Shown: piece by piece, positions 60,275 to 64,000 of the stretch | How positions within the stretch are numbered: the first letter of the stretch is position 1 | Layout: the number at the start of each line of letters is the position of its first letter | Origin: Pseudomonas fulva 12-X | Lineage (GTDB): Bacteria > Pseudomonadota > Gammaproteobacteria > Pseudomonadales > Pseudomonadaceae | DNA: 64,000 nt | Assembly: GCF_000213805.1 (NCBI RefSeq) | Contig: NC_015556.1 | Coordinates: 4,851,001-4,915,000, forward strand | Direction of reading: 5' to 3' | Notes under the pieces: generated by a model | Seen by the model: the letters and a program-made list of their open reading frames with translations, nothing else | Database searches by the model: none | Told to the model about the DNA's origin: nothing | Translations under genes and position numbers: made by a program

Positions 60275-60449
60275 CACGCACCTCGTGCCTGTTGAGAAGG
60301 GAGCTTTTAGGAAAGGGCGGCAAGTATAGGGATTTAGCAGGGCTGAAAGAAGCCTTTTGCACAAAAAATAGCCAACTGGTCTTGCCTTCAAGAAAGGAGC
60401 GTTTGGTTGCGGACCGTTTCCCATTGGTACGTGGTGCAGGGCTGGGAAG

Positions 60450-60802
60450 TAAATAAAGAAAAAGGAATGATTTTTTTAAAAGGCTTGTTTTTATGTTTAT
60501 AAATGGTTCTCGCGACATCTGTGGATAGATCGCTACAAGCCTTTATTCATGAGATGTACAGCGATGTATGAAAGCGGGATTATCCTGCGCGGCTCATGTG
60601 CGATGACAGTGATCAGCCTGTGCATAAAAGTTATCGTTATTCACAGAGTGGTTTATCCCTGGCTTGATCACCGGGTTATCGGCAAGGCTCAGGCGTACTT
60701 TTCCACAGGGTTCATTTGCCCTGTGAATTCTTCTGGAGATCGATGGATTTGCTGAAGATTCGCACGACCCCCGTGGCGTCGTGGCCAAGGGGGTGTGGAT
60801 AA
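60450..60802. other. DnaA-box cluster with AT-rich stretch upstream of mnmG (origin-like)
   Basis: The 539-bp gap 60275-60813 contains an AT-rich run at ~60450-60504 and DnaA boxes TGTGGATAG (60520-60528), TGTGCATAA (60619-60627), TTATTCACA (60637-60645), TTTTCCACA (60699-60707) and TGTGGATAA (60794-60802); three match TTATNCACA exactly. In E. coli oriC is beside mnmG, but in Pseudomonas oriC is normally at rpmH-dnaA, which is outside this window. It could be a minor origin, a titration site or a regulatory region. Confidence 0.5.
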
Positions 60803-60813
60803 GAGGGAGGACG

Positions 60814-61269
60814 TTACTGGGGAGCGCGAGCGCCCTGCTCGATCATCTTCTTCATGAGCGTGTCGGATTTGACGTCATAGCGAAACAGCAGAGGCTTGCC
60901 GTCCACATTTTCCAGGTAAAAGGATTCGGTGCCCTCCCCCTCGGCAAAGCGGGTGTTGTACAGCAGCAGGGTAAGCGGCTGTCCGGTATCGGCCTTCACG
61001 GAAGCCTGGCTCATCAACCGTGTTTCCTGCGGTTCTCCCAAACCACGATTGACCACCGTCAGCAGGTCGACGAATTCCTGCTCGCTGGCATTGGCTTTCA
61101 AGCCTTGCCCCGAAGCCTGGTAGATGGCCGCGTAGCGACCCTGCTGCATATCCTGATGGAATCGTTCCACGTAGTCGTTGCCGGCGCTGGTGAAGTCATC
61201 ATCACCTGCCGAGCAGCCGATCAAGAGCACGCAGCCCAGTGCCGCCAGGGCTTTGCCGATCCAGTTCAT
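60814..61269 (-). CDS. DUF4019/DUF3887-like lipoprotein, candidate Rhs immunity protein
   Basis: A 151-residue lipoprotein. Its signal MNWIGKALAALGCVLLIGC ends in lipobox LIGC (Cys 19), then AGDDDFTSAG; the acidic residues after Cys would favour inner-membrane retention in the E. coli rule (Pseudomonas differs). The mature domain has the alpha/beta layout of the DUF4019/NTF2-like group (YVERFHQDMQQGRYAAIYQA, VVNRGLGEPQETRLMSQAS, TESFYLENVDGKPLLFRYDV). It begins 1 bp after the Rhs stop codon, the classic place for an immunity gene, so it may protect the periplasm from the Rhs tail. Homology is inferred by eye. Confidence 0.65.
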   Translation of the reverse strand: MNWIGKALAALGCVLLIGCSAGDDDFTSAGNDYVERFHQDMQQGRYAAIYQASGQGLKANASEQEFVDLLTVVNRGLGEPQETRLMSQASVKADTGQPLTLLLYNTRFAEGEGTESFYLENVDGKPLLFRYDVKSDTLMKKMIEQGARAPQ

Positions 61270-61270
61270 A

Positions 61271-64000
61271 TCAATCCCTCAAACAAATCTGTTTTTGTTC
61301 ACAGGCCATCACGCCGCCAGAAGCACCACCTCCGATGCTCGCGCCGCCACTTACCGTGACGTTGCTGGGTTTGCCTATTTCGGACATCACACTGCCGCCA
61401 AATTTTCCCAGGAATCCGCCACCGCCAAACACGCCGACGCTTTTTGTCGTACCACTGGTTGGAGGCGCGTTGCTTGCCGATACGTTGCCGCCGACACCGA
61501 AGGACGCACCGGGGCCAAGCGTTCCACAGGTCGTGTAATACACGCAGAGGTTGAACCACTGGTCCTTCTTCTTTTTTCCTGTGGCTATGCCGAAGGCGCC
61601 AGAGCCACCGCCACCAGCGTTACCCGCCATGCTGACATCGGCCGAAATGGAACCCTCGAAGCCTCGAGTTGGATACAGCGCCTCGCTGACCTGCTCCGGT
61701 GTCGCACCGTTCTGGTACATGTACTGAGCCAGCGAAACCTGCTGCTGTATGCCAGGGCTATTGGTGATGAAATCCCACAGCCCTAGGGGATCCACGCCCA
61801 GCGTCGGCAGCTCCGTATAGCGATAGGTGTTCACGCCGGCCAGCAGTCCCAGTGGGTCCTGGGTCAGATAGCGCCCGGCCTGCGGATCGTAGTAGCGGAA
61901 GCGGTTGTAATGCAGGCCGCTTTCCACATCCAGGTACTGACCCTGGAAGCGAATCGGCTGATCCGTGCTGCCCTGTTCGTTACCGATGGCATGCCAATCG
62001 CTCGATTCGCCGCTCCACAGCAGGTTGCCGTGGGTGTCGGTCAGGCGCAGCGGCGTACCCAGATGATCGGTGTGGAAGAACGCCAGATGCAGATTCTCGC
62101 CCGCAGGGCGCATCTCCTCTGGTAGAGGCTGCCCTTCGTGGCCCAACTGCCGGCGGATCTCCAGAACCTCGGCACTTTCCTGCTGGCGTAGCTGTTCCAT
62201 ACGTAACAAAGGGACGAAGCTGTTTGGCTGATGCACGGTGGTGCGCAACCGATCTGTGTGCGCTTCAGCGCACTGACGATGGTTGTCCCAACCGTAATAA
62301 GTGCGTTGTTGCTGGCCATCGCGCCACACGTCCTTGGCGATGCGCCGCGACAGGCCGTCATAGTGATAACGGGCCTGCAGCGTCCGACCATCGGATTCGA
62401 CACGCTGTAGATGAACCAGGCGGTTGGCGCCGTCATAGCCGAACAGCATACGGGCTCCATCGGGCTCGACGCGCTCGATCAAGTTGCCGACTCTGTCATA
62501 GCGGAACTGGTAGCCGTCCAGATGAGCGATACGGTTATCCGCGCAGTGTTGGCCAAAGTTATCCACACGGTTACCGGCCGGATCGAAGTGGTAGTAACGG
62601 GAAAGATCACCCTGCGTGCTTGCGACTAGACGGCCAGCCTGGTCGTAGCGGTACTCGATAACCGGCGCGGTAGTGTCATGGATAGAAACGAGGTCGCCCT
62701 GAGCGCCGTACTGATAGCGACGCTGCCACTGTGCTCCGCCTGAGGTTTTCAGTGCACCGGCAATCAGTCGGTTGGCCTGATCGTGTTGGCGGGACTCGCT
62801 GAACAGTACGCTGCCATCGGTTCGGCGGCGGGCATCGCGATGGATCTCCCGGTGGCCGGCATCACGTTCGAAGGCCAGCTCGACCGCGTCGACCACCACG
62901 CCGTGCAGATACCCTGATCCATAGAGTAGCCAGTTGACCCGCGGGGCATCACCGTAGCGGCTGCTTTCCCTGTTGCCCAATGGGTCGAGCTGATGCTCAA
63001 CGTCGTATACCCAGTCTGTGCCGAGGGTTTGCAGCTCATGGACGATCCGACCGGCCGCGTCATACCTGAAGCGCACATCGCTGTCCTGGGATTTCACACC
63101 CAGTAGCTGACCTCCGGGGCTCCAAGTATAGCTTTCGCTGAACGCTTCGGCATGCTCGGTGGCGGGCAGATGCCGACACAGCAACCTGCCCTGCGCATCG
63201 TATTCGAAGCGGATCAGGCGGCCTTCGTCATCACGTTCTTCCAGCAGGTTGCCGGCCGCATCGTAACGGTACTGGCGAACGCGGCCGTCGAGATCCTGCT
63301 GCTGAATCAGGCGATCCACTTCGTCGTAGGCAAAGCGAATCTGTGCGCCGTTCTCGTTCTGCACACTGATCAGGCGCCCTGCCGGGTCATAGGCGTAGTG
63401 CTGGGTACCGCCGTTCGGGTTGGTCAGGCTGGTCAGCCTGTTGAAGCGGTCCCAGGTAAAGCTCGCCTGCTTGCCCTGGCTGGCAGCCCCAACCATGCGG
63501 CCAAGGTGATCGTAGGTGAAGTCGATCTGGGTACCATCGGGCTCGACTCGTCTGAGCGAACGGCCCATGGCGTCGCGTTGATAGCGAACGCATTGTCCGA
63601 GTGGCCCCGTTTGCGAAATCAGCCAGCCATTACTGTCGTATTCGCAGGTTGTGGTGTGCCCGGAACAGTCGGTGTAGCGCTCCAGGGCGCCAAAACGATT
63701 CCAGGCCAGGTGCCGCGTACCGCCTTTGCCATCGGTGATCGTTGTCGGGCGATCGGGCAGACGTGGATCCCGATACGCCCGTTGTGTCTGCGCACCCAGC
63801 GGGTCGATAAAGCTGATCAGATTGCCGCGCTCGTCGCGCAGCATCTGCCATTCATGGTCGTCAGCGTTGCGTATGCCGGTGACGAAGCCGTTGCCGTCAT
63901 CAAGAAAGTAGCGAGTACCGGTCTTGCCGGGTTCCTCGAGCTCTGCTCGCATGCCCTCGCCATTGAAGCGCGCCTGCATGACCCGCTGCAGCGGGTCCTT
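61271..64000 (-). CDS. Rhs repeat protein with variable glycine-rich C-terminal tail (5' end outside window)
   Basis: The 3' 910 codons of a large Rhs/YD-repeat gene; the frame is open to 64000, so the N-terminus (possible PAAR/T6SS domain) is missing. Many YD repeats are visible (for example RQYRYDAAGNLLEERDDEGR). The Rhs core ends with HTDHLGTPLRLTD, YYDPQAGRYLTQDPLG and PTLGVDPLGL; in other Rhs proteins the chain cleaves itself there. The following 168 residues (61271-61777) are the variable tail: a helical part (QQQVSLAQYMYQNGATPEQV), then a Gly/Ser-rich part with a KKKK patch, CVYYTTCGT and a final CEQKQICLRD. I recognise no toxin family. The neighbouring lipoprotein gene is the candidate immunity partner. 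Confidence 0.88.
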   Translation of the reverse strand, partial: KDPLQRVMQARFNGEGMRAELEEPGKTGTRYFLDDGNGFVTGIRNADDHEWQMLRDERGNLISFIDPLGAQTQRAYRDPRLPDRPTTITDGKGGTRHLAWNRFGALERYTDCSGHTTTCEYDSNGWLISQTGPLGQCVRYQRDAMGRSLRRVEPDGTQIDFTYDHLGRMVGAASQGKQASFTWDRFNRLTSLTNPNGGTQHYAYDPAGRLISVQNENGAQIRFAYDEVDRLIQQQDLDGRVRQYRYDAAGNLLEERDDEGRLIRFEYDAQGRLLCRHLPATEHAEAFSESYTWSPGGQLLGVKSQDSDVRFRYDAAGRIVHELQTLGTDWVYDVEHQLDPLGNRESSRYGDAPRVNWLLYGSGYLHGVVVDAVELAFERDAGHREIHRDARRRTDGSVLFSESRQHDQANRLIAGALKTSGGAQWQRRYQYGAQGDLVSIHDTTAPVIEYRYDQAGRLVASTQGDLSRYYHFDPAGNRVDNFGQHCADNRIAHLDGYQFRYDRVGNLIERVEPDGARMLFGYDGANRLVHLQRVESDGRTLQARYHYDGLSRRIAKDVWRDGQQQRTYYGWDNHRQCAEAHTDRLRTTVHQPNSFVPLLRMEQLRQQESAEVLEIRRQLGHEGQPLPEEMRPAGENLHLAFFHTDHLGTPLRLTDTHGNLLWSGESSDWHAIGNEQGSTDQPIRFQGQYLDVESGLHYNRFRYYDPQAGRYLTQDPLGLLAGVNTYRYTELPTLGVDPLGLWDFITNSPGIQQQVSLAQYMYQNGATPEQVSEALYPTRGFEGSISADVSMAGNAGGGGSGAFGIATGKKKKDQWFNLCVYYTTCGTLGPGASFGVGGNVSASNAPPTSGTTKSVGVFGGGGFLGKFGGSVMSEIGKPSNVTVSGGASIGGGASGGVMACEQKQICLRD

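Follow-up and report, generated by a model that had tools for sequence, protein, structure and literature searches.

A glycine-rich Rhs tail and its lipoprotein partner in Pseudomonas fulva 12-X as a candidate toxin and immunity pair on a Tse5-type carrier

A stretch of 64,000 nucleotides of Pseudomonas fulva 12-X (contig NC_015556.1, positions 4851001-4915000 of a genome that consists of a single contig of 4.92 Mb; hereafter the window) carries the 3′ part of an rhs gene, and the C-terminal tail of its product, 168 residues in length, is directly followed by a lipoprotein of 151 residues. This arrangement is, on balance, best explained by an Rhs carrier of the Tse5 type that bears a toxin and is accompanied by the matching immunity protein. 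Judged from gene order and from comparison between genomes, tail and lipoprotein are very probably toxin and immunity protein, and the tail is likely to act in the cell envelope, because conserved cysteine pairs, a lipoprotein partner and a carrier of the Tse5 type all point there. As mechanism, membrane disturbance is proposed tentatively and by analogy, and is ranked ahead of binding to an envelope protein. The genome comparison indicates a constant pairing and, in one lineage, a joint exchange; at this site rhs-free relatives lack the lipoprotein gene, and in one genome an intact copy follows what is left of the toxin gene. As far as the searches reach, the pair would represent a hitherto undescribed toxin-immunity family, on a carrier that is already known.

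The genes concerned lie on the minus strand in the order mnmE, rhs, lipoprotein gene and mnmG. The rhs product comprises 1300 residues; the gene extends past the window to window coordinate 65173, 909 of its codons are located inside the window, and a query with these 909 residues gave a single match in its own genome. The stop codon of the tail (TGA, 61271-61273) is separated by a single spacer base (61270) from the ATG of the lipoprotein gene (61267-61269). The GAGGGA motif of the lipoprotein gene falls within the final codons of the tail, which interlocks the two genes physically. Coordinates, reading frame, the gap of one base and both protein lengths, as given in an earlier note made from the letters of this DNA alone, were all confirmed on the sequence, and the four cysteines, the KKKK patch and the Gly/Ser-rich runs that it had described are present in the tail.

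Searches with the tail in 398 genomes of the genus yielded seven matches, five of them close (52-100% identity) and two distant (32-34% identity over about 65 residues), and the lipoprotein profile was found in at least six of these genomes. The counts from profile searches of the 398 genomes are lower bounds, as at most nine candidates were scored per genome; one such search gave nine matches, of which those in G257 (E 0.004) and G197 (E 0.0068) were dropped because of in-frame stops. Overlapping genome sets gave 3 of 298 (at most 13 scored), 2 of 12 and, twice, 2 of 95, and were not added. The tail is also present in Pseudomonas sp. URMO17WK12:I2. Recurrence of the pair in other genomes, which had been suggested as a check, was observed: behind all five close tails the lipoprotein gene follows directly and is itself followed by mnmG. 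Upstream, mnmE precedes rhs in four of the five genomes, the exception being G392. In that genome a block containing one integrase-like and one helicase-like gene, named by sequence reading, is found in the place of mnmE (L016:11764-16942).

Furthermore, the best 30 mnmE loci among 149 genomes were compared, three with and 27 without rhs. At 25 of the 27 rhs-free loci mnmG is located 390-834 bp after mnmE and the lipoprotein gene is missing; the other two end before mnmG, at another gene (L070) or at the contig end (L077), and contain no lipoprotein gene in the stretch compared. In the sixth genome with the lipoprotein, G394, the order is mnmE, lipoprotein gene and mnmG without rhs. Its 56-bp spacer retains the end of the tail gene (the last ~42 nt), with 45 of 47 aligned columns identical, the last four being the spacer base and the lipoprotein ATG, and with an alignment score of 82, where 200 shuffles reached no more than 21. 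The orphan lipoprotein has its full length and is identical to the database record P0006 (Phytopseudomonas punonensis), and the ratio of nonsynonymous to synonymous substitution rates (dN/dS) is 0.14, 0.10, 0.19 and 0.30 in comparison with G000, G430, G001 and G183, respectively. In the simplest reading, G394 would hold an antidote that outlived its toxin, as is expected of an orphan immunity gene; alternatively, the lipoprotein gene may have arrived by import together with a piece of the tail gene, in which case rhs was not lost in place.

A joint exchange of the tail and the start of the lipoprotein is suggested by G183. Protein identities to G000 for core, tail and lipoprotein are 93.9, 98.8 and 91.4% in G430, 87.0, 95.2 and 86.1% in G001, 82.9, 51.8 and 71.5% in G183, and 60.5, 56.5 and 39.1% in G392. 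At the start of the tail the DNA identity of G183 drops from 83% to 57% and returns to 75-93% within the lipoprotein gene, in the product of which residues 1-65 are 49% and residues 66-151 are 88% identical. Given this course of identity, the tail appears to have been replaced together with the start of the lipoprotein, which suggests that the N-terminal helices of the lipoprotein (predicted at residues 21-42, 46-51 and 55-60) may carry specificity. No exchanged block is present in G430 and G001. With regard to tail swaps behind similar cores elsewhere, a rule for the core-tail border found a border in one of the eight loci examined, of 30. The proposal of the earlier note, a new Rhs tail with a lipoprotein partner of its own, is supported by the co-occurrence, by the G183 exchange and by the missing lipoprotein gene in the stretches compared at all 27 rhs-free mnmE loci.

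The tail contains 35 glycine (20.8%) and 18 serine residues among its 168 residues, four cysteines, KKKK at positions 68-71 and two tryptophans only (W1 and W74). The alignment of close tails comprises nine rows with eight distinct sequences, the tail P0015 being identical to that of G001 (L003), and all four cysteines are kept in every row. In the three pairs among G000, G430 and G001, dN/dS amounts to 0.02-0.03 for the tail, 0.10-0.12 for the Rhs core and 0.11-0.17 for the lipoprotein, and hence, among these genomes, constraint is strongest on the tail. Due to this strong purifying selection and the retention of all four cysteines, the features of the tail are not attributable to chance. Beside glycine and cysteine, no obvious catalytic set was apparent by eye among the invariant columns. 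A known toxin motif had not been recognized in the tail from the letters alone, and the profile check agrees: up to E≤10 neither Pfam nor NCBIfam gave a match. Neither tail nor lipoprotein was matched by PADLOC, the only match of the tail in PHROGs was a chance one (E 0.03), and the records of plasmids and phages contained no match to the tail at E≤0.01.

The closest solved structure to the Rhs carrier is Tse5 of Pseudomonas aeruginosa (PDB 8cp6). Chain 8cp6_A matches residues 1-46 of the rhs product, the PAAR-like start, with an E value of 1.3e-11, and the shell chain 8cp6_B matches residues 48-1132 with 1172 bits in two aligned stretches, residue 1132 meeting the final residue (1121) of that chain. 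Pfam domains in the rhs product are DUF6531 (E 2.3e-16) and RHS_repeat (E 2e-66). Just ahead of the tail, the motif DPLG-X18-DPLG was counted on the sequence at residues 1106-1131, and a cut is predicted between L1132 and W1133, so that the tail would start at the point equivalent to the Tse5 cleavage. According to the accessible text on Tse5 (PMC10684867), that protein is cut at Leu1168-Ile1169, its motif is DPXG-X19-DPXG with Asp1141 being essential, its tail is mostly flexible or disordered inside the shell, and its authors postulate that it acts preferably from the periplasmic side. The sheath protein VipB of the type VI secretion system (T6SS) was detected above the Pfam cut-off in all six genomes that hold the pair or the orphan lipoprotein. 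Two VgrG matches are present in the source genome (274539 and 4768813), distant from the tail (4912274).

Structure prediction suggests, with moderate confidence, that the tail is composed of a two-helix module and an eight-stranded Gly-rich beta-barrel, the fold being all-beta after residue 43. Cross-strand pairs C78/C165 and C84/C159 may be formed, because 78+165 and 84+159 both equal 243, as in an antiparallel register. The nearest fold to the predicted barrel is that of the Rhodococcus Vap proteins: Foldseek gave VapD with E 0.004 (template modelling (TM) score 0.27) and VapB with E 0.015 (TM score 0.33), and outer-membrane barrels and other small barrels rank lower in the fold list. The structural alignments with Vap proteins have 6-8% identity, and phmmer with the tail against solved chains returned no Vap chain at E≤10. 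A test of strand amphipathicity gave a fraction of 0.0018, which is supportive only, as the strands were taken from the prediction. The Rhodococcus equi set compared consisted of VapD (4csb), VapB (7b1z and 4cv7) and VapG (5aeo), and the accessible parts of the sources describe a Gly-rich C-terminus followed by a Trp and the strand order 1-2-3-8-5-6-7-4 (PMC4118825), as well as VapA being membrane-active and neutralising the vacuole pH, with VapB less so or not (PMC10100859). Unlike in these Vap proteins, there is no Trp after the Gly-rich strand of the tail, and four cysteines, transport by an Rhs shell and an adjacent partner gene are found here. The specific proposal of a Vap-fold toxin serving as an envelope-acting T6SS Rhs warhead, with disulphides C78-C165 and C84-C159 formed in the target periplasm and with neutralisation by an NTF2-like outer-membrane lipoprotein, is based on the predicted model and is, taken as a whole, somewhat unlikely.

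The predicted fold of the lipoprotein is NTF2-like (VIA-align). Its likeness to DUF4019 (PF13211), which had been noticed before, proved real but weak, with E 2.7e-4 and 21.8 bits lying below the gathering cut-off of 26.5; all 14 aligned relatives match the model at E≤0.1, the best of them with 1.2e-5, and the domain is precomputed for two of 11 database relatives. No match above the Pfam or NCBIfam cut-off was obtained, and none to Pfam immunity families at E≤10; matches to SIR2_2, TraV, Pif1 helicase and adenylate kinase, none of them stronger than E 0.012, were rejected as chance. The residue after the lipobox C19, read by eye, is S or T in all 14 relatives. The residue following the lipobox cysteine guides outer-membrane sorting. 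Among the database relatives, P0009-P0013 differ clearly in the N-terminal part while the C-terminal part hardly varies, which gives the impression of an exchangeable N-terminus.

Based on homology, the 1300-residue PAAR-Rhs protein would be loaded onto the T6SS spike. Its shell, as the motif and the Tse5 structure suggest, would then cut itself after L1132 and keep the 168-residue tail inside. Set free in the envelope of the target, the tail could form two disulphides from its four cysteines and fold into the Gly-rich beta-barrel; Ssp2 and Ssp4, T6SS effectors that act in the periplasm, depend on the DsbA of the target cell, according to the accessible part of the source (PMC5792426). The target may thereupon be harmed at the envelope, most likely by membrane disturbance, which is the least certain step. 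The lipoprotein, with its NTF2-like domain facing the periplasm, would bind and block the tail, and its specificity probably resides in the N-terminal helices, as judged from the exchanged block.

Several results weigh against this favoured reading. The tail has no sequence match to a solved structure at E≤0.001; up to E≤10 there were only two chance-level rows, with E 0.81 for a phage coat protein and E 0.77 for a 'subunit a', in a set in which the presence of the Tse5 C-terminal tail (Tse5-CT) is unconfirmed, and Foldseek alone gave no match at E≤0.001. The model was built from nine rows (eight distinct) and has a predicted local distance difference test (pLDDT) value of 69 and a predicted TM score (pTM) of 0.54. 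As VapB is reported to be less membrane-active than VapA, membrane action cannot be concluded from the fold as such. No vgrG is located at the rhs locus, unlike tse5, which lies beside vgrG4. The block exchange was seen in one lineage only, G183, since in G392 the whole gene has diverged and no block is separable; one of the six genomes with the lipoprotein lacks Rhs; and the partners of a second tail family described below are membrane proteins and not lipoproteins in the two loci read. Moreover, no transmembrane helix is present in the tail, the highest hydropathy over 19 residues being 0.97 and none exceeding 1.6, and GxxxG motifs (10 in residues 37-168 compared to 7.9 ± 2.1 in shuffles, p 0.23) and an extended glycine zipper (p 0.13 compared to shuffles) are not enriched. 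These last values tell equally against a pore former of glycine-zipper or hydrophobic-helix type, like EsxX/TelE or Tse5-CT, an explanation to which the Gly-rich tail, the Tse5-type carrier and the membrane-depolarising action described for EsxX and Tse5 in the accessible text would lend themselves. With the prediction being all-beta past residue 43 and the partner being a lipoprotein, not a two-helix membrane protein, such a pore former is quite improbable, and the glycine zipper was rejected.

A periplasmic toxin that does not attack the membrane is the strongest of the competing explanations, albeit an unlikely one: the barrel would bind or inhibit an envelope protein or enzyme, for instance of the cell wall or of outer-membrane assembly, and the lipoprotein would give protection from this toxin. 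The lipoprotein partner and the cysteine pairs indicate the envelope and not lipid, and the outer-membrane and small barrels in the fold list and the lack of a transmembrane helix fit as well, but nothing specific names a target and no catalytic set is apparent. Cargo that has decayed or lacks toxicity, and that is retained to plug the shell as a structural part, would agree with the Gly-rich composition of the tail and the lack of a known toxin domain; the constraint on the tail, stronger than on the shell, the preservation of the orphan partner and the abrupt switch in G183 to a 52%-identical tail along with part of the partner make this very improbable. Hardly more credible is a lipoprotein gene that is resident between mnmE and mnmG and unrelated to Rhs, which would have inserted in front of it. 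The earlier note had named a lipoprotein beside mnmG in a strain without Rhs as the refuting case, and such a case occurs once, in G394, yet there a tail-gene remnant precedes the lipoprotein gene. Because the gene was not found in the stretches compared at any of the 27 nearest rhs-free mnmE loci and because of the G394 remnant, it does not seem to be a resident of the site and most simply came with rhs, which it can outlive; its presence in only six of the 398 genomes, a lower bound, and its exchange together with the tail in G183 also speak against residence, which the mnmE comparison and the remnant largely refute.

The toxin-immunity pair resembles known systems in part, as far as the accessible portions of the sources describe them. 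It shares with Tse5-Tsi5 (PDB 8cp6; PMC10684867; PMC9637101) the PAAR-like start and shell, the DPXG plug motif (X18 here, X19 in Tse5) and a small self-cleaved C-terminal tail, whereas this tail is unlike any solved chain at the above threshold and predicted to be beta in contrast to the membrane-inserting segments of Tse5, and, in place of an immunity protein with two transmembrane regions as in Tse5, it has a lipoprotein partner whose NTF2-like domain is soluble. In Tle3-Tli3 an outer-membrane lipoprotein likewise guards against a T6SS effector (PMC9860674), but Tle3 is a phospholipase and the tail matches no enzyme family. A survey of polymorphic toxins (PMC3482391) contains Imm65 as sole lipoprotein-looking immunity protein and the NTF2-fold families Imm-NTF2 and Imm-NTF2-2; these are paired there with Tox-JAB-1, Tox-NucA and Tox-JAB-2, respectively, while no Pfam immunity family matches here. 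Immunity by a lipoprotein is thus itself already known from Tli3 and Imm65. EsxX/ExiCD is comparable as a membrane toxin with surface-side immunity genes that also occur orphaned, and differs in using the type VII secretion system, a helical glycine zipper and membrane-spanning immunity (PMC12744356). In a literature search outside of which most subscription papers lay, the pair was not described among the matches listed, no paper joining Rhs with mnmE and mnmG was found, and DUF4019 appeared in one work, on salmonellosis severity, as far as its accessible part tells.

Many known Rhs tails are cytoplasmic enzymes. If the favoured reading is true, one shell type, that of Tse5, serves quite different envelope toxins, and the orphan in G394 would be a clear case of an antidote outliving the weapon. 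The tail would also allow the idea of cargo that does not fold until it has been delivered to be tested, and Vap proteins might be connected with competition among bacteria: under the Vap-fold proposal, the Vap proteins of an intracellular pathogen would share their fold, and perhaps ancestry, with interbacterial weapons. The coordinates of all features are compiled in Table 1.

Table 1. Features of the rhs-lipoprotein region in window coordinates
Feature	Coordinates	Strand	Remarks
rhs, 3′ part	61271..64000	-	Whole protein: PAAR-like N-terminus, DUF6531 plug, Tse5-type YD-repeat shell, tail
Tail, candidate toxin, 168 residues + stop	61271..61777	-	W1-D168, immediately past DPLGL
Lipoprotein, 151 residues, candidate immunity protein, predicted NTF2-like fold	60814..61269	-	
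GAGGGA, likely ribosome-binding site of lipoprotein gene	61275..61280	-	Within final tail codons; role suggested by sequence
C-terminal plug motif DPLG-X18-DPLG-L, residues 1106-1132	61778..61858	-	Rhs self-cleaving aspartyl protease motif
N-module, ~residues 1-43 of tail, predicted helices 8-22 and 27-34	61649..61777	-	Common to second Rhs tail family
Gly-rich beta domain, residues 43-165 of tail, predicted eight-stranded barrel	61283..61651	-	
C78-x5-C84	61526..61546	-	Predicted strand 3 (76-87); kept in 9/9 aligned close tails
C159-x5-C165	61283..61303	-	Final predicted strand; kept in 9/9 aligned close tails
Divergent block of G183, whole tail and about first third of lipoprotein	61123..61777	-	Drop in DNA identity
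Lipobox LIGC (C19), then Ser	61213..61224	-	C19 invariant in 14/14 aligned relatives

The N-module is shared with a second Rhs tail family, as a profile comparison over 43 columns gave a probability of 98.1 and an E value of 7.1e-14; beyond the N-module no homology was found in this comparison, in which both profiles are shallow. The second family (L018:5481-9022 and L019:7065-9025) comprises Gly/Ala-rich Rhs tails with repeated neighbour genes for proteins of ~96-124 residues, which, judged from one tested neighbour with two hydrophobic stretches, possibly form a membrane-immunity array.

Further observations concern the surroundings of the pair. The mnmE-rhs spacer, outside the window (L006:8174-8302), contains, 5′ of the rhs start, an inverted repeat whose 7-bp arms match perfectly around a 4-bp loop, as seen by eye, and an Rfam scan of the window gave zero matches. 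In G008 a different gene is located after mnmE (L070:2074-3066, reverse-complement), so that the site seems to accept other insertions; from its look we take this gene to be restriction-endonuclease-like. Of the 22 sites in the window that fit the DnaA-box-like consensus TTWTNCACA (1.34 expected from shuffles), five are clustered at 60355-60802, in the spacer that separates the lipoprotein gene from mnmG. This spacer is located at most ~10 kb from the end of the single-contig genome record and may lie near oriC.

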